Under the pieces are notes generated by a model, which had not been told where the DNA came from, did not search any database, and worked only from the letters and a program-made list of their open reading frames with translations. This document shows, piece after piece, positions 24,847 to 62,984 of a stretch of 64,000 nt of DNA. The position numbers and the translations under genes are program-made. The DNA comes from Phorcus lineatus. Taxonomy: Eukaryota > Mollusca > Gastropoda > Trochida > Trochidae. Numbering within the stretch: the stretch's first letter is position 1; every line of letters begins with the position of its first letter. The DNA lies in contig OV121096.1 in the NCBI GenBank assembly GCA_921293015.1, positions 6,328,285 through 6,392,284 of the forward strand, in the 5' to 3' direction.

Positions 24847-24853
24847 TGCCACA

Positions 24854-27800
24854 ATGGGTTTGTCTAATGCTGAAAGACAGCGCAAATACCGTTTAAAAAT
24901 AAATCGAGATCCAGAGAAGCGGCAAAGATATTTAGATACAGAAAGAAGAAGATATCAGGAGGAAAAAAAAACAGGGAAAAGAAAAAATATAAGTAACATG
25001 ACTGAACTTGAAAAGCAACAACAAAGACGAAAATGGAGAGAGAAAAAAAAAGCAGTGAGACAAAAAGCCAGACCATTGAAACAATCTACAGTTAGAGAAA
25101 CCTTGGCTCCAGTAGATAGACCTAACTTCACCAGGCGGTGTAAATATTTTTCTTCATCAATTATCCAATTTTGTTCTCAAACAAGGTAGCTCCGTCATAA
25201 AGTCCTATACTAACCTCTTATGTAATTTGAGCGGTTTTAGGTCCAGAAATGTAGAAGCCTGATTGGATGCAGTCACAGTTGTGCAATCAGCAATGCTGTT
25301 TCAAAAGTTATCATTAACAAAACCTTAGATATTTCCATATGCTCCAGGAAAGCTGAACTTTATTGGAATGTGCAAGCTGAGTGTTCAGTACAAAACACAG
25401 TCACTTTATTTGGTAACAACATCATCGAATATTCCATGAGGCAAAAAATATACTATCCATGTTTTCAGACTTTTCATTGCCTGTAATTTTGCTGAAAAGA
25501 TTGTGTTGCAATATTTTGCTGTTAGGAAACTTGTCCAAAGTCCAAAAAGAGCTTGTATTTAATATTTTGATGTTAGGAAACCTGTCCAAAGGCCAAAAAG
25601 AGCTTGTATTTGGACAGAGGTTAGTCAAGGAATTTATTACGGAGCTACCTCTGTGGGGAGAGACTTTTTATTATGCCCTTATCCATGTTGATTTATATTT
25701 GCATTCATGGATGTGTCACCCCATTCAAAATTCCTGTCTATTTCCCCCAAGTGGCATGGATTTCTGTGCTTTTCACCTTAAAAGGGATGGTAATTTGGAG
25801 GTTATTTTTTGTTGTTATAAAATTCGAGGCAACATTATTGTTTATGCATATCTGTAATTAATTCTTAATTATTTCATTATTGATTTAGGTGAGTTGCTCA
25901 GTGTTTTGGTTGTCAAGATTTTGAAATTTGTCTTCTGAATAACATGATTTTTGCTGAATGCAAATTTTCATATTAATTATTGTTGTTATTACTTAGTATT
26001 TATCAACCAAATATTTTTCAAAATTTAGTTTGATTTCTTGATGAATGATGAAGTCCTCGTTGATATGTCTACAAATAATGTATTAGTAGGTATAAAACTT
26101 CATCGATGTTGAACAAATCTATTAATTTTCTGTGTATACTTGAGATTATTACATTGCTTATTTCATATATTTTAATTTTCATTTCCTGCACATTCGATGA
26201 TTACTAACAATCAGACAGTTTATCTATATTTCAAGCTTCTTTCTTTTTTAAATATTCTCAAAATATACTTGATCTCACACTTATAGATACAACTCTTGTA
26301 CATAATCTTGTTGACTCCCTTGTTGATTCGAACCAATACCATCAGTGCCAATTTCCTGCACTGTCTGTCCCAACAGCTTACTCTGTGTTCGAATCCCGCC
26401 AGGGGCTCGGCAACTTTATCTGCAGTAGAGAACTGTTCTACACGCAGTCAGGTTTGGGTGCAATGTTACACCGAATTTCAGGGCAGTACCACCCATGGTT
26501 CGCTAGTTCCAGCTGGTTTCACCGCAGTGCATAGCCACAATGGTGTTGCGGGCTTTCTCCCTGCAATAATACTAGCAGCCGCGATATAAGTGATATAATC
26601 TTGAAAGCAGCGTTAAAAACCAACTCACCTCACCTCCAACAGCTTATTCACACGACCACCAGGCCTTGGTGTGGTCTGTACAAGCGGTGGTTGTCATAAA
26701 TGTACAAATATGTGAAAATTTGGGGATCACTGAAGTTTTTAAGAATATTTAGCATCATTTATGACTTCCATCTTTAAAAAAACATTAAAGGATTTATTTT
26801 AAGAAAACAGCATTTTAATATTGTATTTCACACATGTAACACATTTCTTCACTGTTAAATGTAAGCATTAATGATATAGAATTCTAATATGATATGTTTA
26901 GTTTCATAAATAAATTCCTATATCTATAAGGGTTGTCATTGAATGTTTTTTATCGCTTTAACTTCATTTTATCCCTTACTAAGCTTATCTGTATATCTGT
27001 TTAAGGTTTGTGCATTTCTGAAATGTCAGCAAAGTTCAGAAATTATCAGCATTGCTTAGATCAACTCATAAAAGAAAGATAAAGATAAAGAGAACGACAG
27101 TTTCTGCTGATTTTTAATGAGAAATATTTGTAAATAAGCTCTCTTTGTGTCATTGAATATTTTTTGTGTGTAAAGATTTCTTATTAAGCTTGATGTGTAT
27201 TTTACAGATATATGTAATGAGGTAAACGGTTTTAGTTACAAAATGATTTCATGAGGAAAGGGTAATAATTATAACAGAAACATACAGTAATCCCTTAAGA
27301 ATTGTTTAAAAATCAGTATATTGGATGGAAAAAGCAATGATAAAAGTATTATAAAGAGAAGAAGTTTTCTCCCAATTGGCAGTAAGACTCATAATTCATT
27401 TCATTTCAACATTATTATGCAAAATAACAGGTCAATAACATATGTAATTGTTTAGTTATCTATATTTTGCCTCACATAAGACTTTGAGCTGAACTTCAAA
27501 TTTATCTAGTCAAAAAGCTTTTGTCTGGCTTTCCACCCCAAATTTCTATGTTTTTCCACTTTCTTTGTTTTTCCACAAGTAAGAGTAATTATGGGGTATT
27601 TTTTTGTGGAAATAAATTTGAGGGGAAATTCCTGTTTGTATACACGTCATAAATTTATGATTATTATCCCTTTTCAATTGAGAATTACTTCTTTAATCAA
27701 ATTAATGATAATAATGATAATAATAATATCTCTTAATTGTCTGCAATACATTCTACATTGTAAATTTGTTGTGTGCTCTCAGCACCTTGCAGCCACAGTG

Positions 27801-30800
27801 TAGCTTCTTCTGTCCCTTTATTGCTGAATGACAAGCAAGGAAGCAACCTCTCCCATCTTTTAAGATCTTTGGTATGGCGTGGCACGGATTCAAACCCAGG
27901 CCTCCCGGTTGACAAGCGGAGGGTGTGTTATGTGCATTTATTAGCACCTGCCTAATCGCCTTATCAATAATGAATATCTATAAAGCTAAGAAATAATGTC
28001 ATGTGGTTTTATCAGCTATCAAGATTTTTTTTCTTATCTTTTGTCCAGGTAAGACGAAACCAAAGTTACGGAAAAAGAAATCAAAATCAAAGAAGACATC
28101 ACAAAAAGGAAAAAATGCAGAGAACAGCAGGTAAGTTCTTTGGTCCTTATATAAGTGGCTATCAGGGAAATATTTTCATGAGTGGCGCAGCCAATATATA
28201 TAGGCATCACTCCAGTCTAGAGTATAGAGATAACTGATATTCTGACTGATAATGTGGTGATTTACTTCCAAAATGCTTCACTTGAGGGTCTTTTTGCGAC
28301 GTTATACCAATGTTAAATGGTCACTAGAGATAACCGATATTCTGACTGATAATGTGGTGATTTACTTCCAAATTGCTTCACTTGAGGGTCTTTTTGCGAC
28401 ATTATACCAAAGATTCAAGGTCACTAGAGATAAATGATATTCTGACTGATAATGTGGTGATTTACTTCCAAATTGCTTCACTTGAGGGTCTTTTTGCGAC
28501 ATTATACCAAAGATTCAAGGTCACTAGAGATAAATGATATTCTGACTGATAATGTGGTGATTTACTTCCAAAATGCTTCACTTGAGGGTCTTTTTGCGAC
28601 GTTATACCAATGTTAAATGGTCACTAGAGATAACCGATATTCTGACTGATAATGTGGTGATTTACTTCCAAATTGCTTCACTTGAGGGTCTTTTTGCGAC
28701 ATTATACCAAAGATTCAAGGTCACTAGAGATAAATGATATTCTGACTGATAATGTGGTGATTTACTTCCAAATTGCTTCACTTGAGGGTCTTTTTGCGAC
28801 ATTATACCAAAGATTCAAGGTCACTAGAGATAAATGATATTCTGACTGATAATGTGGTGATTTACTTCCAAATTGCTTCACTTGAGGGTCTTTTTGCGAC
28901 ATTATACCAAAGATTCAAGGTCACTAGAGATAAATGATATTCTGACTGATAATGTGGTGATTTACTTCCAAATTGCTTCACTTGAGGGTCTTTTTGCGAC
29001 ATTATACCAAAGATTCAAGGTCACTAGAGATAAATGATATTCTGACTGATAATGTGGTGATTTACTTCCAAAATGCTTCACTTGAGGGTCTTTTTGCGAC
29101 GTTATACCAATGATTCAAGGTCACTAGAGATAAATGATATTCTGACTGATAATGTGGTGATTTACTTCCAAAATGCTTCAATTGAGGGTCTTTTTGCGAC
29201 GTCATACCAATGATTCAAGGTCACTAGAGATAAATGATATTCTGACTGAAAATGGAGTGATTTACTTCCAAAATGCTACACTTGAGGGTCTTTTTGCGAC
29301 GTTATACCAATGTTTCAAGGTCACTAGAGATAAATGATATTCTGACTGATAATGTGGTGATTTACTTCCCAAATGCTTCACTTGAGGGTCGTTTTGCGAC
29401 GTCATACCAAAGATTCAAGGTCACTAGAGATAAATGATATTCTGACTGATAATGTGGTGATTTACTTCCAAAATGCTTCACTTGAGGGTCGTTTTGCGAC
29501 GTCATACCAAAGATTCAAGGTCACTAGAGATAAATGATATTCTGACTGATAATGTGGTGATTTACTTCCCAAATGCTTCACTTGAGGGTCGTTTTGCGAA
29601 GTCATACCAAAGATTCAAGGTCACTAGAGATAAATGATATTCTGACTGATAATGTGGTGATTTACTTCCTAAATGCTTCACTTGAGGGTCGTTTTGCGAC
29701 GTCATACCAAAGATTCAAGGTCACTGAGGAACGTCAATGATGTCCCGTTGGTTGTATCATCCTCTCTGTGATGAGAAAGTGTTACCAAACTACAGTGATG
29801 AGAACGCTATTATCAACTGAGAGAACACTAAGCATAACAATTGATCATCAATGACTAATAGTGAAATCTCCAATGATCATGCTGACCTTGGCCTAGATTT
29901 TCGAAGCTCTCTTAGTGCTAAGATAGTTGTAAGCCAATGCTGGGATGTTGCTCAGTTGGTAGAGCCTGTGCTCATCACCAGGAAGGTGTGAGGATTTGAA
30001 CTTATAGTAGATGTAGAAATTTGGCATGTATCAAAATTCACTAAGATTTTATGAAACATACTCATTGTTACTTTAATCACCAACCACTAAAATGAAACTT
30101 ACCTTGCAACCACAAGGCATAATTTGCACGAGCTTCAACCATCCGCTTATTTGATATCATCACTTCCTCTTCGACAGCTCTTTATCATACTGCAGCTGAT
30201 CTTAATAGATCTAATCGAAATCACCTTGTGGGTACATCCAATAGTCTAAGAGAGTCTTGCTTTCAATCCACATTTTTGGGGTGGACATATTTTGACACAG
30301 TGCAGCAAGGTTTGAATTAGTGATTAAGACTGGATTGAGCAATACCTTGAAGGGGAGTTGATTTTTTTCTATTCTACTTAATACCATAGGGACTGTAGCA
30401 TTGACATCAACAACTGGTTATTTCCGTCACAGCCATCTTTATTCAAGCAAAGTTACATTACCCGGTACTTGAATTCTACTTTGCTTACAGCTGATAGATA
30501 ATCGAATTACCCTACAGCTTAAATTGGAGTATGTGAGAATGATTTTGTTTGCTTATGCATTAGTAAAGACCTATTGTCTATTACAGTACATGTGTTAAAC
30601 CTTGTATCTCATCTTTTTCAGGGGTGAAGACAAGCGCCCAGTTTTGTCCAAAAAAGTTGTGAAGAATGGATTTGAGAAAAAATTCATAGGTCAAATGACT
30701 GATTTCTGGAAATTCAAACTTTTCTGTGATTTGAAGCTTGATATTGGTGGAATCGAAGTCATGGTGGGTAGCTTAAGAACATAAAAATGTAATGTAAGAT

Positions 30801-33333
30801 AATGTCATCTTAAAAAGGTCACTCATGTAATAAACTGCAAATCATTGTTGTTATTGATTTTTGACATGAAGTTTGTAAATTGTAGATTTTGTGCATCTAT
30901 GGCCCCCTATTAGGTCACAGGGGCTAAACTACGTCTCAGCCAACAGCGATTATTAATTTAGATTTGATGACTTTGTGGCAACATCTTAATGATAACATAA
31001 TTCACAGCCTATGTGCTACAGATCCAGTAACATAACTCTATTTTCATCATGACAATTTTTACTCTGTGACCATGACTTTCAGTTAGTCACATGATCTATA
31101 AATTCTAGCCTTGCCCTTTCTTTGAATAGGTCAGTCATCAACATTTAATGCTAAATGACTGCTTGAGAATTATTCATAAGGGGAAACAGTTTTTAAACTA
31201 AATTACCTTTTCTTTCAGGCCCACCAGCTCGTATTCAATGTCGCACAACCTTTCTGCCTCCAAGGACTAAAAACACGGAAGGGAGAGAACTCTGTATTGA
31301 CAGTTGAAGTTCCTGTAGTGACCAGCAAAGAAGCAGTTGAAAGTTTCATGACCTACCTTTACGAAGGCACTCTTTTAATCACTGAGACAACAGTCTATGA
31401 AATTCTCAGTCTTGGAACATATTTCAAGTTTTCATCTATTGAATATTTCTGCAATTCTTTCATCAAAGCTTTGTCAACATACCAGAAAGCACAGCAGTCA
31501 AAGTCTGATCCAGCATCCACCGTTAAAGAGCTAAAGAGAAACCATTCAAAGCAGAGGCCCTCCGAGACTGTCACTATGCCTAAACTGATGAAGGAGTCTG
31601 CTGGTCCAGATGATAGTGAAATGGAAAAGGAAGTCACTGGACCTCCAATTCTTTCAAACTTTAAAATTGAAATTGATGTTGATGAGAAGGATCCTGTTCA
31701 AGAAGGTGTTGATGAAACTGACATGTATACTCCCTGTGATGAGGGGGATGTTTCCATGGAAACGGTTCAAACCAATGATGAACCCATGAGGATAACTTGT
31801 GTTGATGACAATGACCAAGAATGGCTTTTGGTCCCTAATGAGACTGAAGACACCTCTGATGCAGGGAAAGAATTTGATGACAGTGACTCAGAAGTTGATG
31901 AAAGTGATATTCAAGACATTCCAAATATAAAGCAAGAAAAGAATGAATGTAAGGATGATTGTCATCATGAAATGTCACCAGCCAAACCTTCTCATGAAGA
32001 GAATCAAGTGAATGAGGATTCAGATGCTGATAAAAGTGGAGGTCATGAACTAAGTTTTGATGCATCAAAAGACATCAAACCAATCCTTCTCCCAGATGGT
32101 AGCATCTTGGAAACCCATCTTTCAAAAGACAACGGCTATTCTCCTTTGGACAAAGTAAATGATATAACAATACAAAATGTTCGTTCAGGTATAGGGGCTG
32201 AAGATCTTGAAGAACAAACCGTTTTGGGAAGTAACAACGGAATTCAAAGAAAGCTAAGTCCAGAAGCTTCTTTTCAAGATGACTTTGGTCTGTCAAGGGA
32301 TTCAGACGATCCAACTGATGGGGGGTTTGAAAATAAGGAAATGGACAATGCTGAGATAATGAACAATGGTCAGAAAATGACACCTGCCACAGTCATTAAA
32401 GAAGGTTCAACAGTTCTTTTATATGAAGAATCTGACATTGGTTGGGAGTCATGGGAGTCCCATGTAGAACCAACTGTAGACTTTGGAGTTGATGAAGAAG
32501 GAAACCAAAGGCCAGATTATGAAGAATTCAAGCATAACAATATTTACTTCAAGTACTACAAATGTGACAGATGTCCAAGTCTTTTTACAAGCAGGGTCCA
32601 ACGTCAGGAACATGTTCAAGTAGTTCATTTTGGCTTCAGATATGTCTGCCAGTACTGTGGCAAAAAGATGATATCACCAAATGGCCTAAGGGCTCATGAA
32701 TTAGAACATACCAGTGAACAGCAACATTACCAGTGCGAGAAATGTAATAAAACATTTCAAAGAAAGGCAGCCCTGGATATTCATATGGAGAGACACCAGT
32801 TCAGAGAAGTCATCAGTGCAGCTAAAGAGGCAAAGAGGTACAACTGTAGAGTGTGCTTGGCATCTTTCACTTCACTAAGGACTCTGATGAAACATAAATC
32901 AGCATTGCACAAGACCAAATTGGCAACCCCAGTCAGTCACTCACCAGCCAAAGTCAGTCCAGTATGTCCAGAATGTGATCTCACATTCAAATGTGTGTCG
33001 TCCATGAGACGTCATTTCAAGACGGAACATCCAGACTCGGAACTCGCAAGTTCTGTACAGTTTAACTGGAGAGATGTCATTCAGGCAAAGTCTTTTGGAG
33101 AAACGGATGGGCAGGGGACTGAAGAGAGCTGTGTGAAGGAAGCTGTTCAGGACTCAATGGAGCTGGTTCACAAGGAGGTTCTTGAAGAGTCTCCCAAACG
33201 AAAGAGGAGACGATCGGTGATACCAGATCGCGTTACAGGAACTAAGAACTTTCACTGTCAGGAGTGTGGTATGGACTTTCTGTTTGCAGCTTCACTCAGG
33301 AGACATTGCAGATCAGAACATTCTAATACATAA
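24854..33333 (+). CDS. Gene A: BTB-C2H2 zinc-finger protein with a basic AERQ N-terminal module, 874 aa
   Basis: Coding exons: 24854-25139, 28049-28130, 30622-30763 and 31219-33333 (2625 nt, all junctions in phase). The ATG follows a 3' splice site (TTATTTCAG) by 7 nt, so the 5' UTR is split. Residues 1-95 are a very basic module (NAERQRKYRLK, then DPEKRQRYL, then QQRRKWREKKK), a type I recall at the N-terminus of uncharacterised invertebrate proteins. Residues 97-122 are a lysine-rich linker. A BTB/POZ domain spans about 152-245 (LFCDLKLDIGG, AHQLVFNV, AVESFMTYLYEG). A long acidic region follows. Five C2H2 fingers span about 619-776 and a sixth starts at about 850, ending 3 residues before the stop. 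BTB-ZF proteins are usually dimeric nuclear transcription regulators; that role is inferred. Gene B is its tandem paralogue. AATAAA occurs at about 33478. Confidence 0.85.
25174..25663. mobile_element. TIR element in gene A intron 1, same family as 58971-59120
   Basis: AGGTAGCTCCGT at 25184-25195 is the inverted partner of ACGGAGCTACCT at 25639-25650. The right end (aatttattACGGAGCTACCTCTGT then GGGAGAGA) is nearly identical to the right end at 59087-59118. Inside lies a 51-bp unit repeated twice (25510-25560 and 25561-25611, about 92% alike). The insertion begins only about 35 bp downstream of gene A's exon 1 donor. Non-coding. Confidence 0.55.
26380..26632 (+). mobile_element. tRNA-derived SINE (5'-truncated)
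   Basis: A pol III B-box-like GTTCGAATCCC lies at about 26388, followed by a conserved body (CCATGGTTCGCTAGTTCCAGC, GGTTTCACCG, GTTGCGGGCTTTCTCCCTG) and a tail ending GCGTTAAA-AACCAACTCACCTCACCT. The body recurs at 55956-56112. This architecture is typical of molluscan SINEs; I cannot name the family with certainty. Confidence 0.7.
27770..27960 (-). mobile_element. tRNA-related SINE fragment
   Basis: On the minus strand there is a tRNA-like segment with GGGAGGCCTGGGTTTGAATCC, a good B box with its T-arm context, at about 27890-27911. It continues into a CAGCAATAAAGGGACAGAAG-like body. No complete tRNA fold is evident. It lies in gene A intron 1. Confidence 0.45.
28221..29725 (+). repeat. 100-bp satellite array, 15 units, in gene A intron 2
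   Basis: TCACTAGAGATAA recurs exactly every 100 bases from 28321 to 29621, with a first variant unit at 28221 and the final copy ending at about 29725. Units share TGATATTCTGACTGATAATG, TGGTGATTTACTTCC and GAGGGTC(T/G)TTTTGCGAC. Variants form blocks. Units 1-3 and 4-6 are near-identical 300-bp triplets. Units 6-8 are the same variant repeated. Units 12-15 share GTCGTTTTGCGA and GTCATACC. No indels occur between units. The array starts about 90 bp after the exon 2 donor. Confidence 0.97.
29940..30001 (+). repeat. tRNA-like SINE head fragment
   Basis: TTGCTCAGTTGGTAGAGCC at 29948-29966 matches a pol III A box with its D-arm context, and GAGGATTTGAACTT at about 29991-30004 is a weakened B box. 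The spacing fits a tRNA-derived SINE head. No body or tail is recognisable, and the B box is degenerate, so it is not called as a tRNA gene. Confidence 0.4.
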
Positions 33334-33460
33334 CATAACAATGATTGCTGGCAGAGTGATTCTGATGTGTTTGCAATTTGTGACTGAACATGAGGCTGTT
33401 GATTTGTATTCTGCTATGGCTCTTACTGAAAACAGTGTATGTTTGTAAATGATAGAAAAG

Positions 33461-33676
33461 AAAATGTTAAAATTAGTAATAAAAGTTGACAGGAGCGAAC
33501 AATATTCCAGAAGGAACAATGTCAGAGTCACAGGTATCCCAGAAGACACGGATCAGTTGATTGTTGACCTCTCAGCAAAGATCAGGGTTACCGGTAATCT
33601 GTCCCTAAAGGACATTGACATACCGGTACATGTTTCCTTACCATGTCAAGCAGTGGTGAAAGCATTGTGTCTTTAA
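33461..33676 (+). mobile_element. LINE ORF1-like fragment in the gene A 3' UTR
   Basis: The frame reads KVDRSEQYSRRNNVRVTGIP, then EDTDQLIVDLSAKI, then LKDIDI. EQYSRRNNxRxxGIPE and the following ENTDxLIxDL pattern are characteristic of the coiled-coil/RRM-like ORF1 protein of non-LTR retrotransposons. Only about 60 residues remain before a stop. It starts about 130 bp after gene A's stop codon and probably forms part of its 3' UTR. Confidence 0.65.
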
Positions 33677-33699
33677 TAAAGTAGAGAAAATTGTCACAT

Positions 33700-34775
33700 T
33701 TCAAACCTAACAGATATTCAAATTTCGAGTTTTTAAAAAAAAAATTGATAAAAAAGATATATTGTAATGTTATGTCTAGGAAGATGGCAGGATCTATGAG
33801 GCCTGTCTGGCTTTCTGTATAAGATTTACTGCAAGTAACATACTAACAAACTGAAATGAGATCACTTTGATAATACTCTTCACATATTCCAAAGTAAATT
33901 TACAGAAATTAAAAGCAAGATTTTTCTGGATAACAATTTCTCTGTTATGAACAGCCTGGTTGTTTCTGACTTAATAATCACATACTGCTTTATCAGGTAC
34001 ATTGTAACTATATTGTATCTGTGATCGAATTTCAAGCTGGTTTTTTTCACACAATGCTTAATAAAAGGAAATATTCCAAAAAATATAGGCAGTGGTATGA
34101 ATAGTTTAGTATACTGTACCCAAGGACGTATATAAATCCTATGTATACCTTTATGAATTATTATTTCTACTTATGTATCCAAAATAAATAGTTTAGTATA
34201 CCTCAGCTGCGAGCACAAGGAAATTCTAAGAAGAAATAATAAATGAAAGTGTGAGACTGAAACATCATGAAATTGGAGTTTCATTTACCAAATCGGGAGT
34301 TGAACACATTTTGTCTGCGGCTGTGAAGAGGAAAACCCCTTATAGAATGATTTTTAGAGTCTGGCAATCATCTGTCATGGATTTTTGAGGGAATGACATG
34401 ACAAAATGCGCTGTCCTTTTAAAACATAACAATAAATTATATATGAATGGGTAGAATATTTTCACATTTATTACAGATTTCAGATAAGACTATTCAACAT
34501 AATCTTGACTAATCTTGTAATGCTTTAACAAGGCTTTTCACAATAGTAGCGCGGATGAATGGCTTCTTCTCTTGTGTTTTTTTTTTACTGAGTGTGGGCT
34601 CTTATGTATAAAGTTGTAAAATCTAAATCAACCGTAACATGTTTAAAATGTGTTGTGTTATAATTATGTATTAATAATATATATGAATAAACAGGAATGT
34701 CCCCTTGAAATGATCCCCACAATAATGCCTTGATAGCACTGAGGGTAACATCTTGTTTGAATTAGGATTGATAAC
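33700..34775. other. Gene-free A+T-rich stretch after gene A
   Basis: I see no coding or RNA gene. A weak duplication exists around 34100-34205 (TAGTTTAGTATACTGTACC / TAGTTTAGTATACCTCAGC). Confidence 0.4.
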
Positions 34776-35330
34776 TCCGAGGGGAAGTCAATAAGTTTAT
34801 AGAAGTGGATATAAAACAGAAGCCAATGGTTGCGATATTGATTTTATTTTTCAATATAATCTTCCTGAACCTAGATGCACTTTGCCCATTTGTCTTTGAG
34901 ATTGCCTATGCACTTGTAGTAGAAGTCTTCTGACTGGCCCCGCAGTCGCGCCTCAGTAACTGCCATGAGTTCATCATAATCGCCAAATCTTGTACCACGC
35001 AAGTGTGATTTCCAATTGCTAAACAAAAAGAAGTCACTTGGGGACAGGTCTGGACTGTATGGGGTATGGTTAAGTTGCTTACTCTGATGTACCGGATCGT
35101 TGTAATGAAGAAGCTGACCCCAAAAGTCAATATGCTGCGTATCTTCAACTTGAACCCCGCTCTCAATTGCTTCAACAAGTCAGCATAGTAGGCTCCTGTT
35201 ATTGTAGTTTAAGGTGGTTTGACGACCCTTGACTCCCAGAAAATGGTCGAAGTTCAGAAGGCAGAGTGCTTATTCTTCCATTGAATGGATTCTTTCTTGG
35301 TGTCACGATCCAAAGTTTCATAAGGTGAAA
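34776..35330 (-). mobile_element. Decayed mariner-type transposon, copy 2
   Basis: In shifting minus-strand frames one reads QWKNKHSAF and STIFWESRV (about 35220-35290), then GAYYADLLKQLRAG (about 35155-35200), then HYNDPVHQSKQLNHTPYSPD, PSDFFLF, LRGTRFGDYDEL and EDFYYKCIGNL, ending KDKWAKCI at about 34873. This is the canonical catalytic and C-terminal half of a mariner transposase, with frameshifts. The terminal GAGGGGAAGTCAATAAGTTT at 34778-34797 resembles the end of the copy at 16108. Confidence 0.85.
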
Positions 35331-36419: not shown

Positions 36420-37165
36420 ATGTTGATTTCTTAACACCTAAGAGCCTTTTACAATAATCCAATTGTAATCTTTCAATGTTTAATCCTTTATTATGTCCCC
36501 AAATCTCGGATGCATAAAATATTACTGCCGACATAACAATAAAAAACAAATAACAGATTCGGGATTCAATGACAATGACCTATAATACCTGACCTGACAA
36601 TAGTATTATTATATATGGAAAAGAGCGTCTTCCTACCCTGATCGGACAACTGCAATGTAGCCTTCGAGAATAAGTTATTATAGTTAAAAACTATTCCTAA
36701 ATATGTAAAAGTATCGACAACATCAATAACCGTACCATTATAAAGCCAGTGCTCTGTCGATTTAATTAACGTTACCACCTTTTCTGAAAACCATAATCTT
36801 AGTTTTAACAATATTTACCTCGAGTTCCCAACGCTCAACAAGACCTCCCCCTGCATTAGACTAAGATTATTTCTAAAACACTGACTACCAAAACCACCAA
36901 TCCTTACACAAGATCTTACATGAAGATATAAAGAAGGAATAACCAATAATAACTTCCCTCTGACACCCAATTTGGCCAATTCATACCATAATTTACACCT
37001 ATCAATTGAATATAAAGCACGTTTAAAATCCACAAATGCACAATACATTCGCTTATTACTATTCAGAGTACGACTAATCAATGAATGGAGGGCAAATATA
37101 GCATCAACTGTGCTAAGATTAGGACGAAAACCAAAACACAGACTTAACTCAGAGACAATTGATAT
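36420..37165 (-). mobile_element. Decayed LINE (non-LTR retrotransposon) reverse-transcriptase fragment
   Basis: Minus-strand frames read CFGFRPNLSTVDAIFALHSL, AFVDFKRALYSIDRCKLWYE, LAKLGVRGKLL, LYLHVRSC and LMQGEVL (37150-36830). These correspond to RT motifs, including the AFVDFKxAFDSIDR palm strand and the GLMQGE segment. A second frame reads VDTFTYLGIVFNYNN and DQGRKTLFSIYNN (36720-36590), the usual post-RT region. The YADD-type active site is lost in a frameshifted stretch. Inactive fossil. Confidence 0.8.
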
Positions 37166-42168: not shown

Positions 42169-42224
42169 AGATTTGCAGCACTCCGCAGGAGTATTCAAGA
42201 TAATTACAACAGCTTTCCGAGACG

Positions 42225-42620: not shown

Positions 42621-45600
42621 AAGAGACAACGTTTTAAAACAATATTTGTGGAAACAATCTGAACTGAGTGCATATAAGTGGCAATTAAGGATGGGATGAT
42701 TAGGTGGAAATGAACGTTTCAGCAGGGAACATTACAGTACACATATTTTTAGTTGTGAGTTTCATGTTTTGACATGTTTCAACTTTTTAGATGCAAAGTT
42801 TCGTGAATATGAAATTATGAATAAATATTCACCTAAAAAATTCAAGTTTAAGTGACCTTTCATGATTGCATTCATGTATTTTTTAAATTGTAATGATTTA
42901 TCTTGAAAAAAATACAGATAGGACGTTCTCTGACTTGATGCCAGGGCTGCATGGGATTCGGCTGCATGTGGTCCAAGAAATAGCACCCGGCGGCGTCTAT
43001 TTGAGATCTGCAAGATCTTTAACAACTCACAGAGTTTTTCTTTTAGTACTTTAGATATGCATTTATTATTTCTATGAGTGAGCGAGTGAGTTATTGTTTG
43101 AGGGACCGGTCATTTATTACAGGGGGGGTGGGCCGGAGTTTTTTCTCTTTGGATTGTCTATAAAAATGTGGCCCTCCCCAAATTGTAGCAATGTTTTTCA
43201 TGGCCCTTCCAATTTAAGCGTATTTTTTTTCATGACCCTCCCCATTATCTACGTAAGTTCTTGAAATTGGTCTTTTGAAGATTTATGGTCGTTTCTACAT
43301 TCAATTTTTTTTTTGATATTTCCAAAAGAGAAACTTCTTTAAGTAACGCTTAAAATAATGTTGAAAAAAACAACAGATTTACCCTTCCATTCATGGGTTT
43401 AACATGATATCTGATAATGGTCTATAGTGTTTTAAAATCAGTTTTATTAGAACTTTTTTTTTTACATCAACTGTATATCAAAATAGGTTATGAATACTAT
43501 TTCTTATAATACACACATGTATATGTTTAACATAGTGTAAATTCTATCTTTAATTTTATCTTACTTTATCTCATTTTTATATATTTTTAAAATTCAAATC
43601 ACAATGTCTTTTTTATCTTTAAATAACAAAATAGGTTAGGCACTGAGGAAGAGAAGGAATTTTTTTTATGGATGATGAACTTCTTTAAATTGAATTTACT
43701 TTCAACAGAGATAAAAAGAGCTAAGATATTGCACTAGTTAAAAATTCCATCAAAATACATATCTTCCCCACATTTAATTTATTCCACTAAAAACTTGAAA
43801 CAATGAATTCATAAATTGATAAAACCATGGAAGGACCAGGTTGGGAGACAAGCTCTTGACATAATGATTTCTTTTAAAGCAAAAAAAAAAAGATTTAAAA
43901 TCTACCTACAAACACTTTCAGAGAATAGGACCAAACAATGTAAAATGTCAAATCTTTACTTTATTGGAATTAAATTATAAAATTTCATAACATTTAAACT
44001 GTTTGTGTATGAGTTTGATTAAAACAAATTTAACCGTCTACATTAAGTTTGTAGCACAAGAAATCTTTAGAATTTTGAAGGTTACATTATACATAACATA
44101 AGGATAATAAAGGCACATCTAGGTTTCACAGAAATTACATGTTACATGATATTTAAACAAAGTGTAAAACCCAAAAAGTATGGAAGCTTATGTATGAATT
44201 CATAGCGATTATTTTTATGAGACACAGGGTTTGAAACTGTACAAAGTGTTTGGTATTGAGTCACAATGATGAAATGAATGAATATATCTATAAATACGCA
44301 CATACATATATAGGGATGAGACCCTGTTTGACACTGTAATGCATGCACAACGTGCTGAAATCTTGGGTAGAAATACGTCAAATAGCTTATTTTGATTTAT
44401 TCCTAAAATTCTCAATATATTTGTAATTCTCCCATCTTAGAGAATGAATCGCGCAGAAACTGGTGATCTACCGGTACATAGCCAATGACTTTTTCTTTAA
44501 AAAACAAAACGTATTTCGGTATTTTCCGTAAATACTCGGTCGACTCCGGATATAAGCTTTCATGTCAAAATGGCGTCTCGAGCAAGGCTCTAATTTTGAA
44601 AACATATATGTCTCCAATTGTCCAATATTTACATGTATTCAATTTTAAAGACAGTCATTGAAGGAGTATATATTTAAGATCGATCAGGGGTGTGCGTGTT
44701 TCTTAGGTAGGTACGTAATTAAAGATGTTAAAGAGAAAAAAAGTTCACGAGTATGTTTACCTAGTTCCGAACCCGACCATGTATCGCACTATTTAGTCAA
44801 TGTGTCACAATTTCCTGCGATCAACATGCAAATTATTATCCATATCCACTCTGTTTTAACATGATTTCAATAATATTTATTTTTTCTATTGAAATGTGAG
44901 ACGATGCTTGCCACATATTCCTAGCCAGTGTATCCAGAAGGGAGACAACTCCATCGTTTAGCGGTAAATGTTAAAATTGGGAATGGGATGCGGAACAGGA
45001 ATATAAAATAGTGATATCTTAATAAATTTATTTTTTAACTGTTGATAGATTTCATAATTAGCCTATATTGAGTATTACTATAGTACCCATTAGTTTGCTT
45101 ATTATTATACCTGTGCAAGTAAAACCTTGAAATTGATGTAGGCGGATGCCAGAATGGTTGAACAAGAAGTGAAATGACATTGCCAATATTATCAGAATAG
45201 GTTCGTTTTTGTTTAGTCACATTTCACCTAATCATGAGCAGGTTATATATACAAATTCGTTATTGGATTACATACATACTTTTATTCATCTAACCACTCT
45301 AAAGCACATCACTCATAAATTAAAATCAGCTTGATTGAAATACAGATGCAAGTCATTATAGATTGAATCTACTCCAGGAAAAAAATACACTATTGGAACT
45401 ATTTATGCATAGGTGCATTTATTGTTTCCACATTCGCTTTTGATAAAGTAATATTGCAAAATTGACTGAAATAGCTGATAATTGTGATCAATCACTAGTT
45501 TGATGTGTCAATACCTTACAGTATTTTGCTATTGTAAGATAAGCTTTAAACTTGTTAAGCCATTGTAAACTATTTTTGTGGACTTAATATCTAATGTTTA

Positions 45601-45963
45601 TCTTATTTAATACATTAGGATTGGTGAGCTTCATATGGCTCTATTTTAAACTTTTTATCAAATTTTATTTTAGTAACACGTCTTACTTCAGTTAGATTAA
45701 GCTTATCAATGCACTAGCAATTCCGTTTTAATGAATTTTTGAAAGTACAAGTCCAAACAACTTCAAGCTTAGCCGACTCAGCATCTTACTATGTTTTCTG
45801 AAATCTTAACTAATAGTTCTTAGTTTCAGTGTTTTCAAGCCACGCTTCTTTTTCACATCCCAAATGGAACTTGACTAGTTTCTATTTTGAACCATGCTTT
45901 TGGAAAAAAAATTCTGTTGAGGGCCTATGATTAATTAGATAATTCATTAAAGTTTATTTTCAG
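42621..45963. other. Upstream region of gene B, no gene recognised
   Basis: A+T-rich, without a recognisable coding exon. A small GC-rich patch with GGATATAAGC and AAAATGGCGTCTCGAGC at about 44545-44586 has the look of a core promoter (YY1-like ATGGCG), but its ATG frame stops after seven codons and does not splice in frame to gene B. Confidence 0.35.
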
Positions 45964-45970
45964 ACGAACC

Positions 45971-48900
45971 ATGAGGAAAAAAAAGTACAAGCTTACTTTG
46001 AACCGAGTAAAGAGGAAATCTAACCCAGCCCAAATGCAACAACCTGTGTCTGATACTATCGTTCCCACAGAAAGCAATCCAGTTGAAGCAAGTGGCGCAG
46101 GAAGCTCAGAGGAGGAAAGTGTCTCATCTCTTATTCATGGAATGCCAAGTGTATGCGTGGTCGGTGGGTGTAGCAACACCGCATACAGCAATATCATCCT
46201 TCATTTATGGCCACAAGACACAGAAAGAGCAAGTAGGTGGACAGAATTTGTACAAAGGTCTCGAGGAAACTTGAAAACAGGACTGAGTAAATACAGCTAT
46301 ATATGCTCCGCACACTTCACTGAAGACTCTTACATCCATCCAAGTTCTGTTGCGGCCACATTAGGATATAGACCTACACTCAAGACAGATGCATATCCTA
46401 CAGTTTTAAAACCATCAATTGAGACACAAAAAACTGGTACAACTACAACCGATATTGGGTCAGCGGGCAGCAAACCTGGAGCAACCACTGAGTACTCAAC
46501 ATTTAGAATGGGGAAATTCTCAAGGGTGAGTTTTAGCAACAGAATATTTAAAACAGTTAAACTGTAGGTCTACCTTGTGCTTTTTCCGGAATATCAAATG
46601 TAAATGTCAATATGTGTTTTCAACTAGCCATGTTTATGTGTTTTTATCAGTGTTTGTGATAAACATTTATTCATGTTAGGATAAAAATTAATGAATTTCA
46701 TCTTATTTTTATTAATTGATTTCTGTTTCCGTATAACTAATATTAGAACTGACCCTTATTGCTAGTTTGGGCTATGTTTTTCCAAATGTGTACATGATTT
46801 TTACAAAATTTAATCTATCATTATTTCTATTTCCTTTAAGAAATGTCCGGGTGAAGATGTAAAGGAGGACCTTGAACAAAATGGGATTGATCCTGAAAAT
46901 CATCAAAGGAAAAAGGGGACGGAGTGTAAGGAATACGTTATAATGACGTTGCTATAAATTCAATATAAAGGAAATTGAAAGCCATTTTTATTCAGCAATC
47001 AAAAAACCCCATCTAAAAATTATTATGACACTAGAGTTTTAGTTGGGATAATTCATGTTCAGATGAGAAAGGGGTGTATGTCCTGTCACAATCTGTCATT
47101 CAAATGGGTTTCTGTCTTCTGGAATTAGGTCTTTTGACAGTTTTATATCAATCTTTCTGATATGGTTTCTGTCTTCTGGAATCAAGTCTTTTGACAGTTT
47201 TATATCAATCTTTCTGAAACGTTACAGATGCTTTTGCTAGACATGAGTTATGCACACATTTATTGTTGATTCAATGAATATTCTCAAAGATTTCTGAAAC
47301 CGATAACAGTACATGACTTTACAATGTCTGAGTGTTGGGTATATTTTAACTTTGGCTAAAACCGTTTAATGGTCAGTGATAGTTGAATAATGGCTCATTT
47401 TTCTGGAAACTTTATCCTTGACCTTAACTAATTAGTCAGTTTAGTGGTCGGTGATTGCTCGTTTTCTGGATACTTATTTATTGACCTTAGCCTAAGCTGA
47501 CCTTAGGTCAGAAGTAGATGCATGACAAATGTAGCCTTCTTCACGAGACAGTTATAATGTGTTCATAAGTTTTACTTAGTTTGCTTTGACCTTAGGCAGG
47601 GCTCCAGATATGATGCTAATCTGCGTAAAATACGTACAGGTCAATCGGATATAAGCATTAAGAATGAAATCAATGAGTGACAGATACGCACAACTTTCCC
47701 AGAATGCGAGTCAGATATCTTTGTACAGGACTGATCGTGACTTGTCAAAACAAATATCATTTCTACATGTCTGAAGTTTACATCTACAAATATCTGGAAA
47801 ATATTATCAATGACTTACATCGAAAAAGATGATATTTACTTGAAATGAGGATTTGAAAACGATAAACCTTGAAATACTCCTAGTTTTTTCATTTGGTAAT
47901 TTTACTTCTCGATTTTTATTTTGAGTCCAAATAATTATCTGGAGCCCTGCTTAGGGAAGGAATTGTTTCTGTCAATACCAAACAGTGATCACTACCACTA
48001 TTAGTCAGTTACAGCTTGTTGCTACTTGATATGTGTGTTAGATGATGTCATAATTTTCAAGCAGATTTTAAATGCAATGGAAGATTTAAATAGTGTATGA
48101 CAAGAACCTTCTTGGCGAGTAACAAGTGTTCGTTACTTAGTTAAATCATTGGCAGCAATTTTGTCATTTACCCTGTAGGGAGAATCTTCTGCCTTGCAAA
48201 TCGTGCATTCCCCACCCTATAGAGAGTGTATGACTTTATAAGCTTTTTCCATTCCATACCACAAACGGTTAAAAGGTGTTCACGCAAAAATGACAAATAA
48301 TTTCTTCTGCGACTTGGGTGATGGGCTGAGTAATATGTTTGACCCACTGAATATGACCCTTTTGGCATAAACTAATGTTAATGATGTAAATTTGAGGAAT
48401 AAAATTTGAAAAATCATGCTTATCCCCCTTAGGTCAAATTTGATACCTCAGAGTGCAAATGTTGAACCCTTACAGGGTGTTATCCTTTGCTTTGTGGTCC
48501 ATAGATTCAAACTGCTTACTTAGGAGATTGTTTGTTAATCAATTGTCCCATGGCAAAGGTTGTCTCCCAGCTGTTTAGTCATTGGCACACCACTCATTCC
48601 ATTCGATGACATTTTACTGATAAGTCAGTTCTCTTGGAAATACAATGCATTTGTCTATGCATTTGAAATATACTTGACAAAGGAATCTAAGGGATATTGT
48701 CAATTTTATAATAAATATTTCATCAGTTGCTCAATGTTAAATTATGTCTTTATCAAATAATTATTATTAAATCTTCATATATCCCTTATTATTTTTGTCC
48801 AGTTTACATTTGTTATACATCCTTGTATGTGACTTACAAGTTTGAATTTATTCATGGAAAACACAGAGGATTTTAAATTTTTTCAAAACTTTTTGTGACA

Positions 48901-51900
48901 CTATGTAATGCATAGACAGGTGAAACAATAAATATGCATAGATAGAGAGAGGATAACTATATTTTAAAAGTACTGATTTATTTTCAAATCTTTTTTATTG
49001 TAGCAGGCTTAATATGCCATTCATCCGAAAATAAAAATAAAATACTGCTGTTAGCAAATAATGCTTTATTTTTTCCTGATTTGTTGTCATATTTATTTAA
49101 TTTGATTTCTTATCTCTTATCTAGGTATGAAAAATCCAAAATTCCAGAAAAAGGTCAAAAGGAATAAGACATCACAACCAGCAGATTGTGCAGATAACAT
49201 GTAAGTGTTAGTCAAGAAGTTCCATTAAGTCCAGTGCAAATTGAATGATATCAGCTATCTACATATTCACATTAACGCTAGAGACCCGGGTTCGAATCCC
49301 GGTGGAGACACCAAAAATTTGTGACTTGGGTCTCATCCTGTGTTGTGTCCCTGGGCAGGACACTTCATCCACTTTGCACTCAGTTCACCCAGCTGAACAA
49401 ATGGATACCTGAACAAGGGGGAAGTACGGACCTATACGGACGTGCAGAGCGCTTGTTAATCAGCGGCACCGAACATACTATCCCTCCAGGGTAATAATAC
49501 TCATGGCGTTTTGAGCATTCTTTATCATGGATATATGCGCGGTATAAGAATGCTATTATTAGGTCTTCAAGACAAAGTCTGGAAGACCTATTGGTTTTAT
49601 CCGAGTTATTATTATTTGTACTTTTTTTGTGAATCGACTACAGCCAAAACGGCTGCTTCAAATTCAACCAAATTTGGTATGCTGATAGCCCTTACTGTGG
49701 AATAGTCGTGCGAAGCTTTTGGGCTTAATCGGATCATGCGTTAAAAGCACATACCCACTCAAAGTTTCAAAAATTAACATTGGAAAAATTTTCAAAATGC
49801 ACTTAGAGACTTGCAACTTGTTTTAAACGATAGGCAATTACATTTTGAGCAAAAAAGTAAATCATGGCAATTTCGTAGCGTTAGTACTTTCGCCGCCATA
49901 TTTCTTTTTTTGACTTTTTTCAATTTCCGGACCCCATGCATCTTTGAAAATCTTCTCCTCTGAAGATACATGCAATTAAGAGCTGAAACTCACATATATC
50001 ATAGCTGAAGGAGTGGGGAGAAAAGTTATGGAGCCACATTTTCAATTTTCTTAATACTTTTTTTTCTGCAACCCTTCAAAGTCGGGCGACTTAGCTCATG
50101 TGACCATGTTCAAGGGCCGATAACTCAAAAACTTAGACTCACCATTGCACCATTTTTTCAGGAATGTAAGACCTATATGTGGACTTGACGAAACTATCAA
50201 AACATCGATCGCGAACATGGTCTTTTTTTCACAATTACCGATCGAAATCGGGAAAAATCTTTTGACAAAATTTAACATGGGGTAATTTTTCAAAATGCAC
50301 CTACAGACTTGAAACTTATTTTGAATGAAGCGTCATAACAGTCCAAACAAAAAAGTCAATCATGACGAATTCGTAACTAGCATACTTTTTTCGCATTGTC
50401 AACTTCTTTGCAATAATATCAGTTTCCTTATGAGATTTGGTCACATAGGCAAGTTACTGTTTACCACTAAGACAGAAAAGCATGTGAAGGTCAAACACTG
50501 TGTGAAGGTCAAACACTATGTGAAGGTCAAAGAGGAAGTCTTGAAGACCTAAGTACTGCCTCGGCAGTCCTAGTTATTATTACTATTATTATTAAAGCAG
50601 TGCTTGTGGCCCATTAGAACCCATGGTCTTCAGTTGTCTTCATTTCCAGAAGCAGTGATGAATCTAAAAACATGACCTGCTATCTTCCACCAGGTCTTGT
50701 CAGAGCAGGTTTAAATGAGATCCTCAATAAAAAAGCAAATATTACCACGAAAATACTTTGCATCCCAGAGTCTCAAAGCCTATATTTTATTTTGAGTCTT
50801 TTCAAAATTTATGACTGTTTGATGCAGAACCCGTTGGTTAAAATTATTAGTGAAGAATTGACCACTACTTTACAGGGGTTATATTTTGAGTCTTTTTTTC
50901 TTCAGGTGAATTTGTTACAGGGTTTAGCTGAATTTGAAATTAACCATATAAAGGCAATAACTGTTAATACTTGTGGTTTTCTGAAATTTGTGCAAATACC
51001 TTCACTAGTTATTCTGGCTCCTCACCTAGATCATTTCAATTTCATTGAAATGAGATGTATCCTATTGCTGCGTTTTACATGAGTAATACACTAGGTGGGT
51101 TATGTCAAGGGTTAAAACGGTTCACAACTTTAGTAGATGAACTGCAGTATCTTTCCTTTTGTTTGTCGCCCTTATATGAATAAAAGTCCAATTTCAGTTT
51201 AAACCAAACACCTGATTTTTTAGCCCATCTGACCGTCATCAGTGTATTATTATGTTCATCTGGCCTGTAAGGCCAGTTTGGCTTACCTTCTTTAAACTTT
51301 TAAATGTTTCATCTTCTTCTCCAGAGTCATGGACTAAGGAAATCTGAAATCTTGTGTGCAGACTCCTTGACTAAGGAAATCTGAAATCTTGTGTGCAGAC
51401 TCCTTGACTAATTAGGTTTTTCGGTAGAGGATGGGGATTTTCTCCTATAGATTTGGTGACCCTGTTACCGCTATGAAGGGCCACAGGGACCATACCCTAA
51501 AAACCTATTTTCATCCTCTTCTGCAGAAGCAATCTAAAATTTTATCCTAAGCTGATGAAGCTTTTGATAAATAGATTTGGTGATCCTTTTGCAGCTCATA
51601 GGGTGACCTGTCAATCATCTTCATTCCAGAAAGATTTTAACACAGGCTTTAGTTTATATTCTGAATTTGGTCTTCCAGATTAAGGGGAAGACGATAAGGG
51701 GGTAGTGACAATTAGATAAATGTCTTGATTAAAACATTACTCAATTCATACTTTAATTTTCTAATGGCTGTTTAACTACTAGTGAATAACTGTCTTTCTG
51801 ATCTTTTACAGAGGTGAAGACAATGAGCCGTTACTGTCAAAACTGGTTGTGAAAAATGGATTTGAAAAAGACTTCATAAAGCAAATGACAGATTTCTGGA

Positions 51901-54900
51901 AAAACAAACTGTTCTGTGATATGAAGCTTGATTTTGGTGGATTTCAAGTCTTGGTAGGTTTAAAATGATGATAATAATCCTTATTGTCCTATGTGTAATG
52001 TTGTGTAATTTTGGAAAAATTTTCTTTTTAAACTCTGCGAACACAAAGTCTGTTACACATTATGTCCGGTTGATAACTTTGTAATTAATTATAACCATTT
52101 TGATTCAAATTTGATATGGAAATTCAGATATAAGTAATGCTGTGTCATTAGTAACTGTTTTAAGAATATGTTAAAGAGAAAGACAAGAAACTGTTTACAA
52201 TTCCTGTAGGCTCATAACTTCTAAACTCATAATCATGTAATTTTGATCGAATTTGGTAGTGAGAAACATAATTACATGACGGTGTGTCATGATTGACAAG
52301 TTTAAACTTAAAATATTACAACATACATCAATCATAATCATTTAATCATATGTAAGTTTAGATAGTTTTAAGTTATTGCTTGTCCTTTCATACTTGACGC
52401 TGAATTTCTTCGAGATGTATTTGAGATAATTGTTTTCAAATTGCTTGAAGACCTTCTGATCTTCAATGATTTGTTCCTGAAATGCCTTAAAATCAATCTT
52501 ACAAACTTGATGTGTTACCAGTTTTCAATAAATTGGAAGTTAATGGTTTCATAATGATCCTTTCCAAATCTTAAAACCCTTACATTTTTTCTGCTGAGTC
52601 AAAGAGTTAATTATGCATTAATAGGCAAACAGCAACGGTTGTTCACTCAGCACTTTTTTGTTAAAAATGAATTTTGATTTTGTTGTTACAGGCCCACCAG
52701 CTTGTTTTCAATGTTGCTCAACCTTTCTGGCTCCGAGGACTGAGCACACACAAGGAAGAGAACTCTGTATTGACAGTTGAAGTTCCTGGAGTGGCAAGCA
52801 AAGAAGCAGTTGACAGTTTTATGACATTCCTTTACAATGGCTCTCTTTTAATCACAGACAGAACTTTTTATGATATCCTCAAACTTGGAAAATTGTTCAA
52901 CATTACCTCCATTGAGTATTTCTGCAACTCTTTCATCACAGCTTTGTCAAATTACAAGAAAGCAACAATGGCCAAGCTTTCAGATCAAGAGCCTAGCAAC
53001 AATGATTTGGAAGATCATTCAAGGCCCTCAGTGACTCACTCACCTGAACTCAATAACATGTCTGAGGAAGGAGAAGAACCTGGAAGGGAAGACGAAGAAA
53101 CTGATGCTTCGATTCTTTCAGACTTTAAAATTGAAATTGATGTTGATGGAAAGGATCCTGCTCCAGAGGGTGTTGATGAGACTGATGTGTATACTCCTCA
53201 GGGAGAGGAGGATGTTTCCATGGAAACAGATGACGAATTCATGAAGATTTCATGTGTTGATGACAATGACCAAGAATGGTTACTCGTGCCCAACAATATG
53301 GAAGACGACTCTGATACAGAGAGAGAATGTGATGACATTGAACCAGAAGCTGATGACAGTGATGTTCCATTCATTCCAGAAATGAAGAAAGAGGCAGAAG
53401 AATCTCAGGATGATGATGGTCATAATGACAAAGAATGGCTTTTGGTCCCTAATGAGACTGAAGACACCTCTGATGCAGAGAAAGAATTTGATGACATTGA
53501 CTCGGAAGTTGATGAAAGTGATATTCAAGACATTCCAAATATAAAGCAAGAAAAGAATGAATGTAAGGGTGATTGTCATCATGAAACGTCACCAGCCAAA
53601 CCTTCTCATGAAGAGAATCAAGTGAATGAGGATTCAGATGCTGATAAAAGTGGAAGTCATGAACTAAGTTTTGATGCATCAAAAGACATCAAACCAATCC
53701 TTCTCCCAGATGGTAGCATCTTACATACCCATCTTTCAAAAGACAACAGCTCATATCCTGTGGACAAAGTTTATGAGAGGAAACTTGCCCAAGCTGTTGA
53801 GCTCGTCGGGAAAGCAAGAAAAAATGATGAAGCTGAAGTTAATGCTGTTTGGGATGTTCATGAAGATTTTCGACAAGAACATGGTGATAGTACAATACAA
53901 AATGTTGATCCAAGTTTTATGGCAGATGATCATGAAGACCAAACCATTGACAATGAAATTCAAAGAAAGCAGTGTCCAGAAACTTCCTTAAAAGATGCCT
54001 TTGGTCTGTCAAGGGATTTAAGCCATCCAAATGAGCAGGGTTTTGAATGTAAGCAAATGGAAAATACCATTGTAATGCACAATGGTGAGAAAGTGAGACG
54101 TGCCACTTTCATTAAAGAAGATTCAACAGTTCTTTTATATGATGATGACTCTGTCATCAGCTTGAATTCACAGAAGCCACAACAGGAATCCTCTATAAAC
54201 ATTGAATTTGATGAATCAGTGAATGACAAGAACCCCTGGCCAGATGATGAAGAATTCAAGCAAACCAGCAACTTCTTCAACCACTTCAAATGCGACAGTT
54301 GCCCAAACATCTTTACGAGCAGGGCTAAACGTCAGGAACATGTTCAAAATTTTCATCGAGGCTTCAGATTTGTTTGCCAGTTCTGTGGCAAGAGGATGAC
54401 ATCACTAGATGGACTTAGGACTCATGAGTTAGAACACCTCAGTGAAGAGCAGCCTTATCAATGTAAGACATGTAATAAAACATTTGAAACAAAGTCCAAA
54501 CTGAATGTCCACAACAAGAGACACAAAATCTCAAAAGTCATCAATGCAGTTAAGGAAGAAAAACAAAACAAGTGTATTAATTGCTCAAAATCTTTCACTT
54601 CCATAAGTTCTCTGAAGAAACATAGATTAACAATTCACAAGAGCAGGTCACTAACCAGAGTAAAAACAAAATGTCCACGATGCAGACTAAGATTTAAATG
54701 TCTGTCTTCCATGAGACGTCATATCAAAACAAAACATTCAGACGCAGAATCTGCCCAGGTTGTCCAGAGCGATGTCATTCAGGCATATCCTTTAGGAGTT
54801 AAAGATGTGGAGGGGCTGGTACAAAGCTGTGTGAAGCAGGATTCTCAGGATAAGATTCCTGAACAGGTTCCAGAGAGGTTTCCTAAACCAAAGAGAAGGA

Positions 54901-55013
54901 TGCCAGATCGTGTTACAGGAACTAAGAACTTTCACTGTCAGGAGTGTGGTATGGACTTTCTGTTTGCAGCATCTCTCAAGAGACATTGCAGATCAGAACA
55001 TTCAAAAACATAG
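45971..55013 (+). CDS. Gene B: THAP-BTB-C2H2 zinc-finger protein, 1059 aa
   Basis: Coding exons: 45971-46525, 46841-46925, 49125-49200, 51812-51953 and 52692-55013 (3180 nt, all in phase). The ATG follows the acceptor (TTTATTTTCAG) by 7 nt, as in gene A. Residues 1-25 are basic. A THAP C2CH finger spans about 60-146 (C62-X4-C67, W90, C112-X2-H115, closing AYPTVL). A linker and lysine-rich segment (186-238) match gene A's in position. A BTB domain spans about 268-365 (LFCDMKLDFGG, AHQLVFNV, AVDSFMTFLYNG). The acidic region contains EWLLVPN twice. Six C2H2 fingers follow, five from about 820 and the last from about 1035. THAP and C2H2 modules both bind DNA and BTB mediates dimerisation, so a nuclear transcription regulator is likely (inference). 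Introns hold a hAT-like element, a SINE and a 1-kb TIR element. AATAAA lies at 55174. Confidence 0.85.
47107..47222 (+). repeat. 58-bp direct repeat, 2 copies
   Basis: GGTTTCTGTCTTCTGGAAT...GACAGTTTTATATCAATC occurs at 47107-47164 and 47165-47220 with about three differences. It lies in gene B intron 2. Confidence 0.9.
47597..47949. mobile_element. hAT-like non-autonomous element
   Basis: CAGGGCTCCAGATA at 47597-47610 is the exact inverted partner of TATCTGGAGCCCTG at 47936-47949. CTTAGG borders both sides (47591-47596 and 47950-47955). CAGGG...CCCTG ends are typical of hAT elements, although their target duplication is normally 8 bp. The 353-bp interior is non-coding. It lies in gene B intron 2. 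Confidence 0.65.
49262..49556 (+). mobile_element. tRNA-derived SINE, second type
   Basis: GACCCGGGTTCGAATCCCGG at 49283-49302 is a perfect T-arm/B box. A body follows (GGGTCTCATCCTGTGTTGTG, GGGCAGGACACTTCATCCAC, GTACGGACCTATACGGACG) and the tail ends ATGCGCGGTATAAGAATGC. The A-box half is missing or degenerate, so it is a SINE rather than a tRNA gene. Its 3' end abuts the TIR element that starts at about 49560. Confidence 0.7.
49558..50575. mobile_element. 1-kb non-autonomous TIR element in gene B intron 3
   Basis: TTAGGTCTTCAAGACAAAG at 49558-49576 faces GTCTTGAAGACCTAAG at about 50538-50553, inverted. AT-rich ATTATTATT runs follow both ends. The interior has two diverged direct copies of a segment of about 500 bp (ATTTTTCAAAATGCAC(T/C)TA(G/C)AGACTTG..., at about 49787 and 50284). 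Near the right end, 18-bp units (TGTGAAGGTCAAACACT) repeat three times at 50481-50531. Non-coding. Confidence 0.6.
51330..51415 (+). repeat. About 36-bp direct repeat, 2 copies
   Basis: GACTAAGGAAATCTGAAATC followed by TTGTGTGCAGACTCCTT occurs back to back at about 51332 and 51369, then starts a third time (GACTAATTAGG). It lies in gene B intron 3. Confidence 0.85.
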
Positions 55014-62980: not shown

Positions 62981-62984
62981 CACA

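Follow-up and report, generated by a model that had tools for sequence, protein, structure and literature searches.

Tandem BTB-C2H2 genes in Phorcus lineatus with a shared body, different N-terminal heads and a candidate alternative THAP exon

Two tandem genes on a common exon plan

The window, by which we mean the whole 64,000-nucleotide stretch of contig OV121096.1 of the gastropod Phorcus lineatus that was analyzed, holds two tandem genes on the plus strand, here called A and B, whose exons are listed in Table 1. Both are real genes, and an earlier note on this DNA had described their exons correctly. The four-exon chain of gene A reads as a single open frame of 874 aa with its stop at 33333, the five-exon chain of gene B reads as a single open frame of 1059 aa with its stop at 55013, and all introns inside the two chains run from GT to AG. 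The common architecture that the note had proposed was borne out, in that both chains are open, the linker exon, the first BTB exon and the large exon are entered in phases 1, 2 and 0 in A and B alike, the first BTB exon measures 142 nt in each gene, and six C2H2 fingers were counted in the large exon of each chain (2115 nt in A, 2322 nt in B).

Table 1. Positions of the exons and other features of genes A and B within the window
Feature	Position	Strand	Basis and remarks
THAP exon upstream of A	18448..18700	+	ATG to donor GTACGT; Pfam THAP 1.3e-10; candidate alternative first coding exon of gene A
Gene A, AERQ exon	24847..25139	+	ATG at 24854; 95 codons; phase-1 exit, T|GT
Gene A, linker exon	28049..28130	+	Phase 1 in, phase 2 out
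Gene A, BTB exon 1 (142 nt)	30622..30763	+	Exon chain, Pfam, blastn
Gene A, large exon (remaining BTB, acidic region, six C2H2 fingers)	31219..33333	+	Exon chain, Pfam
Gene-conversion tract in A (putative)	31810..32162	+	Partner B 53424-53776; 95.2% over 353 bp
CpG-high segment, probable gene B promoter	44340..45040		Two-state model; CpG o/e 1.10 for 44301-45000
Gene B, first coding exon with THAP	45964..46525	+	ATG at 45971; Pfam THAP 6.3e-12
Gene B, second exon, short linker	46841..46925	+	Phase 0 in, phase 1 out (T|GT)
Gene B, linker exon	49125..49200	+	Counterpart of A 28049-28130 by position and phase; weak sequence similarity
Gene B, BTB exon 1 (142 nt)	51812..51953	+	Exon chain, Pfam, blastn
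Gene B, large exon (remaining BTB, acidic region, six C2H2 fingers)	52692..55013	+	Exon chain, Pfam
Gene-conversion tract in B (putative)	53424..53776	+	Over its first ~160 bp, a repeat of the divergent B copy 53268-53428

Pfam searches of both chains, which the note had put forward as a check, returned THAP, BTB (5.6e-9) and C2H2 domains in B, and BTB (7e-10) and C2H2 domains in A, the head of A having no match above the cut-off. The BTB matches score 39.5 and 36.6 bits against a Pfam gathering cut-off of 20.5, and they begin at residue 151 in A and at residue 266 in B, so that the BTB domain lies away from the N-terminus, with the C2H2 array following it in both genes. The domain order is thus THAP-BTB-C2H2x6 in B and, along the chain drawn in the earlier note, AERQ-BTB-C2H2x6 in A, AERQ being the 95-residue module encoded by the first exon of that chain. 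From the BTB region onward the two proteins are 65% identical, with 72% identity over the first 95 residues of the large exon. Searches for orthologues with the whole B chain gave one protein among 7956 candidates, and those with an alignment of the A and B bodies gave three among 6984, all of them zinc-finger proteins of other kinds and none an orthologue.

Upstream of the T|GT junction the genes were said to differ completely, and this agrees with our comparison of 20001-34500 with 42501-56500, in which blastn matched BTB exon 1, the large exon and one dispersed repeat, and nothing else. The linker exons gave no blastn match in these same intervals; at the protein level 9 of 18 residues agree (E 0.87), and because this similarity is weak, it is mainly position and phase that speak for their relationship. 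The ATG of the first coding exon follows an AG by 7 nt in both A and B, as the note had also stated.

Several other features of the window were recorded. The intron between the linker and BTB exons of A contains a 100-bp tandem array (28225-29724). A third plus-strand gene candidate lies between A and B at 40542-42168, with a basic first coding exon, a duplicated small exon (41346-41533 and 41577-41764, 94% identical) and a last exon bearing the motif RPYMYDPE, which has no Pfam match. Across the three plus-strand genes an AG acceptor precedes the first ATG by 7, 7 and 1 nt (24847, 45964 and 40541, respectively), and these acceptors could belong to short 5′ UTR introns or mark spliced-leader addition. 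Another possible BTB gene, which a weak tblastn match (E 1.0) had placed at 61.3 kb on the minus strand, was discarded; the three minus-strand frames of 54001-64000 gave no Pfam match.

A THAP exon ahead of gene A and the likely gene starts

An intact THAP exon at 18448-18700, outside the interval that the earlier note covered and overlooked by it, lies upstream of gene A. When its donor is joined to the linker exon at 28049, the resulting G|GT junction is in phase 1 and in frame, and a THAP-BTB-C2H2 chain of 863 aa stays open; this splice skips the AERQ exon across a 9.3-kb intron, and the phase would match by accident in one case out of three. Three chains are therefore open, AERQ-A, THAP-A and THAP-B, all with GT-AG introns. 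If 18700 is joined to the AERQ exon, by contrast, the reading frame is lost and a stop follows 17 residues after the junction, so that the THAP and AERQ heads would be mutually exclusive in A.

The THAP domains of B and of the upstream exon score 46.5 and 42.3 bits against a Pfam cut-off of 23.9. Eight positions are generally given as invariant in THAP domains (C-C, P, W, C-H-F and P), and a loose pattern of these, taken in order, fits both copies. The nearest solved relative of the B domain is THAP2 (1.1e-6). The two domains share only ~30% identity over 64 columns, against the 72% seen at the start of the large exon, and for this reason they need not stem from one ancestral exon; separate captures or rapid divergence of copies could both account for it. 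In B the domain begins at an internal Met (MPSVC, 46142-46144) preceded by a 57-residue extension, and stand-alone THAP proteins usually start at such a Met.

No further THAP domain was detected at E 0.1 in the plus-strand frames of 14551-24550 or 36001-45998. A P-element remnant was considered as the source of the THAP exons and set aside, no Tnp_P_element Pfam match having been obtained at E 0.1 in the three plus-strand frames of 14551-24550 and 36001-45998. Just upstream of the THAP exon at 18448 lies a fragment at 16100-18070, and another is found at 34780-35200; by motifs seen by eye, we take both to be Mariner-like.

We segmented the window with a two-state model of CpG versus CpA+TpG, omitting segments shorter than 150 bp, against a window-wide CpG o/e of 0.54. 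A CpG-high segment at 17676-20488 covers the upstream THAP exon. The body of A that follows (20490-34883) is mostly CpG-poor and includes the AERQ exon, where the posterior of the high state is 0.07; it is broken by CpG-rich patches at 26366-26657, 29169-29767 and 33003-33236, the last of which is a piece of exon. The body of B (45043-55830) is likewise mostly CpG-poor, with a rich break at 49268-50400. The minus-strand gene at the left of the window, presumably CPSF6, has the same shape, being rich from 14127 and mostly poor over 1-14115, with three rich patches. Intragenic methylation leaves CpG depletion of this sort behind. The title of PMC3840415 gives predominantly intragenic methylation as its finding in a bivalve. 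Read in this way, the landscape suggests that A probably starts near 18.4 kb, without a promoter of its own for AERQ, and that B probably starts near 44.3-45.0 kb, although repeats also raise CpG, as they do at 26366-26657, 29169-29767 and 49268-50400.

These results bear on the model of the earlier note, in which A encodes AERQ-BTB-C2H2 only, and B encodes THAP-BTB-C2H2 only. On that model the THAP exon at 18448 would belong to a separate short gene, and a THAP-only gene whose last, small exon lies upstream of 24.8 kb is possible. The open chains of both A and B agree with the model, as does the AERQ exon itself, which is open over 95 codons, exits in a fitting phase, encodes a genuine module with relatives, and has its ATG 7 nt after an acceptor that is good by eye, like that of B. 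Nevertheless, we consider the model rather unlikely. The phase of the THAP exon fits A, there is no CpG-high segment at 24.8 kb and CpG depletion sets in at 20.5 kb, 4.4 kb upstream of AERQ, and no Pfam domain except THAP reaches the cut-off in the plus-strand frames of 14551-24550, so that no partner domain is seen for a separate THAP gene.

The AERQ head and its relatives

We know of no established name for the AERQ module. A search with its 95 residues, in which 99 candidates were scored, found two proteins, P0002 (E 2.8e-6) and P0003 (E 5e-4), of 841 and 524 aa and at 43 and 42% identity, respectively. Both are longer proteins that begin with the module. P0002 contains D-S-E-N-Y-like, S-D-G and G-H-G-K stretches, which we take to resemble those of cut-and-paste transposases and which make it a candidate transposon-like protein. 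In Pfam there was no match above the cut-off; the best PDB sequence match of P0002 had an E value of 0.35, and a two-sequence AlphaFold model of it (pLDDT 34) was unusable. A model of the AERQ head itself consists of three helices (mean pLDDT 78, pTM 0.42), and a fold search with it returned no match in the PDB. A search for AERQ proteins on viral contigs yielded 134 pattern matches, none of which was confirmed.

Host genes are known to have taken over DNA-binding domains from transposons. The relatives of AERQ being N-termini of large, putatively transposon-like proteins, and the other heads being THAP domains by Pfam, an origin of the heads in mobile elements is probable, in keeping with the earlier note. 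A complete element in place can be discounted for AERQ: the rest of P0002 and P0003, searched against the window, matched nothing better than E 0.11. Nor was a second copy of AERQ evident in the window, the next-best tblastn match having an E value of 0.17.

With relatives of this kind, the AERQ exon could also be read as a mobile-element piece, cryptic or fossil, that lies unused in the first intron of A, in which case A and B would both be THAP-BTB-C2H2 genes and there would have been no swap. An in-frame junction of the upstream THAP exon with the linker exon, which bypasses AERQ, is consistent with this reading, and so is the AERQ donor (GGT|GTAAAT), the weakest of the eight donors used, with a crude score of 4.0 versus 6.0-10.5 for the others. 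An alternative donor, the GT at 25138, was rejected as being in the wrong phase for the linker exon. Inverted-arm stretches also lie on both sides of the exon, at 24038-24507 and 25184-25650 (17 nt at 94%; 58 nt at 74%), and five short inverted pairs (I2, I6, I7, I10 and I11; 16-22 nt, 77-88%) enclose it; the latter, however, are at chance level, since their best ungapped score is equalled or exceeded in 23 of 100 resampled sequences. An unused fossil also fits poorly with a frame that has stayed open over 95 codons at such identity to its relatives, with homology that ends at the exon's donor in just the phase needed, and with the lack of any other piece of the element in the window better than E 0.11. 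On balance we regard a fossil AERQ exon as unlikely.

The earlier note had presented the two genes as an exchange of AERQ for THAP in front of a fixed body. Part of this stood, as different heads do precede one phase-1 junction; what did not is the idea of a simple exchange, for A holds a THAP exon of its own. Because of that exon, its compatible phase and the CpG-rich segment around it, AERQ is more likely to be an addition or an alternative than a swap.

Divergence of the two bodies and a model of head choice

Within the acidic region, A and B are near-identical along one tract (95%, against about 74% elsewhere). Its dS is 0.06 over 117 codons, compared with 0.48 over the 601 other codons, and not one of 2000 codon shuffles reached the observed segment score, which points to recent gene conversion over these 353 bp. 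A matches the converted copy in B at 156 of 161 positions and B's own older copy at 118 of 158, and the two B copies match one another at 117 of 158. As B keeps its own older copy just upstream, conversion probably lengthened its acidic region, and the likely direction is from A to B. Unusually high similarity is seen in the last finger as well, with 94.1% nucleotide identity and a dS of 0.21 over 34 codons, which could reflect conversion or constraint. About 300 bp after the stop of B, at 55309-55362, lies a possible decayed copy of this finger; the match is weak, 13 of 300 shuffles scoring as high, and we did not retain it.

That one or both genes are non-functional copies is very improbable. 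A dN/dS of 0.58 over 601 codons, with the conversion tract and last finger left out, would allow it, yet the ratio falls to 0.40 in the BTB domain and to 0.44 in fingers 1-5 with their linkers, and together with the 65% protein identity these values make both copies look constrained. Moreover, the large exons are long and open, the splice sites are usable, the six fingers of each gene keep their cysteines and histidines, and the gene bodies are mostly CpG-depleted. A C2H2 finger usually contacts DNA through four positions. At these positions 14 of 24 residues are the same in A and B and 10 differ, all of the differences falling in fingers 1-4, with fingers 5 and 6 identical there. The target preference of A and B therefore probably differs even without their heads, to judge from these residues.

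From the exon anatomy, domains, phases, homology and near-identical tract observed at the locus, we infer the promoter positions, alternative splicing, DNA binding and function of A and B as follows. Gene A would be one transcription unit starting near 18.4 kb, whose linker-BTB-C2H2 body would accept either the THAP exon at 18448-18700 or the AERQ exon at 24854-25139, both of which exit in phase 1. Gene B would start near 44.3-45.0 kb and use a different THAP exon and a small extra exon. The BTB domain would pair chains, and the C2H2 array and the head would each contact DNA, so that the choice of head would alter the targets and leave partners and fingers unchanged. We find it about evenly balanced whether the A locus does have THAP and AERQ as first coding exons that exclude one another, with a start near 18.4 kb, and B a THAP exon of its own. 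The wider proposal, in which A is a head-switching factor, B carries a third head and the bodies exchange by gene conversion, so that the pair would form a small combinatorial set, is tentative and somewhat doubtful.

At the lola, fruitless and related BTB-zinc-finger loci of Drosophila, alternative exons exchange the DNA-binding ends on one BTB body. The proposed arrangement of gene A is like these in joining exchangeable DNA-binding ends to one BTB body through alternative exons; in Drosophila, however, the BTB end stays constant and variation lies at the C-terminus, whereas here it lies at the N-terminus. The order of BTB followed by C2H2 fingers recalls the ZBTB family, and the best 60 of 110 PDB matches to the fingers include ZBTB38, ZBTB17, ZBTB20, ZBTB24 and ZBTB7A, with ZNF568 as the best match. 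Unlike in that family, the BTB domain here is not N-terminal and an extra head of DNA-binding type precedes it. Host-transposase fusion transcription factors were reportedly described by Cosby et al. in 2021, with KRAB or a similar host domain N-terminal of the transposase part. The likeness would be that splicing joins a putative mobile-element-type piece for DNA binding to a host regulatory domain, but here the putative mobile-type heads lie N-terminal of the BTB-C2H2 body, and two heads would compete for one junction. The fusion factors of Cosby et al. are cited in a passage of PMC8700633.

Among molluscan THAP and BTB factors, octopus THAP genes are worded in passages of PMC10027918 as derived from BTB/POZ sources, which resembles the present association of THAP with BTB; the domain order, a six-finger C2H2 tail and a paralogue with another head are not stated in those passages. 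For the oyster, 171 BTB and 103 THAP genes are counted in PMC12111275, and the passages of PMC13228809 that treat sea cucumber THAP architectures name no BTB among them. In the open-access library searched, no paper uses the phrases THAP-BTB or BTB-THAP, and among the papers retrieved from it none describes a THAP-BTB-C2H2 chain in its title or the start of its abstract.

If head choice operates as proposed, one kind of junction in two neighbouring genes would have taken up three heads that are unrelated or strongly diverged, namely two THAP domains and AERQ, which would suggest that successful capture of a head depends on splice phase rather than on domain type. The AERQ module, which lacks a Pfam match above the cut-off, would gain a host-gene context, and the locus would offer a natural test of how the choice of head redirects a BTB-C2H2 factor.
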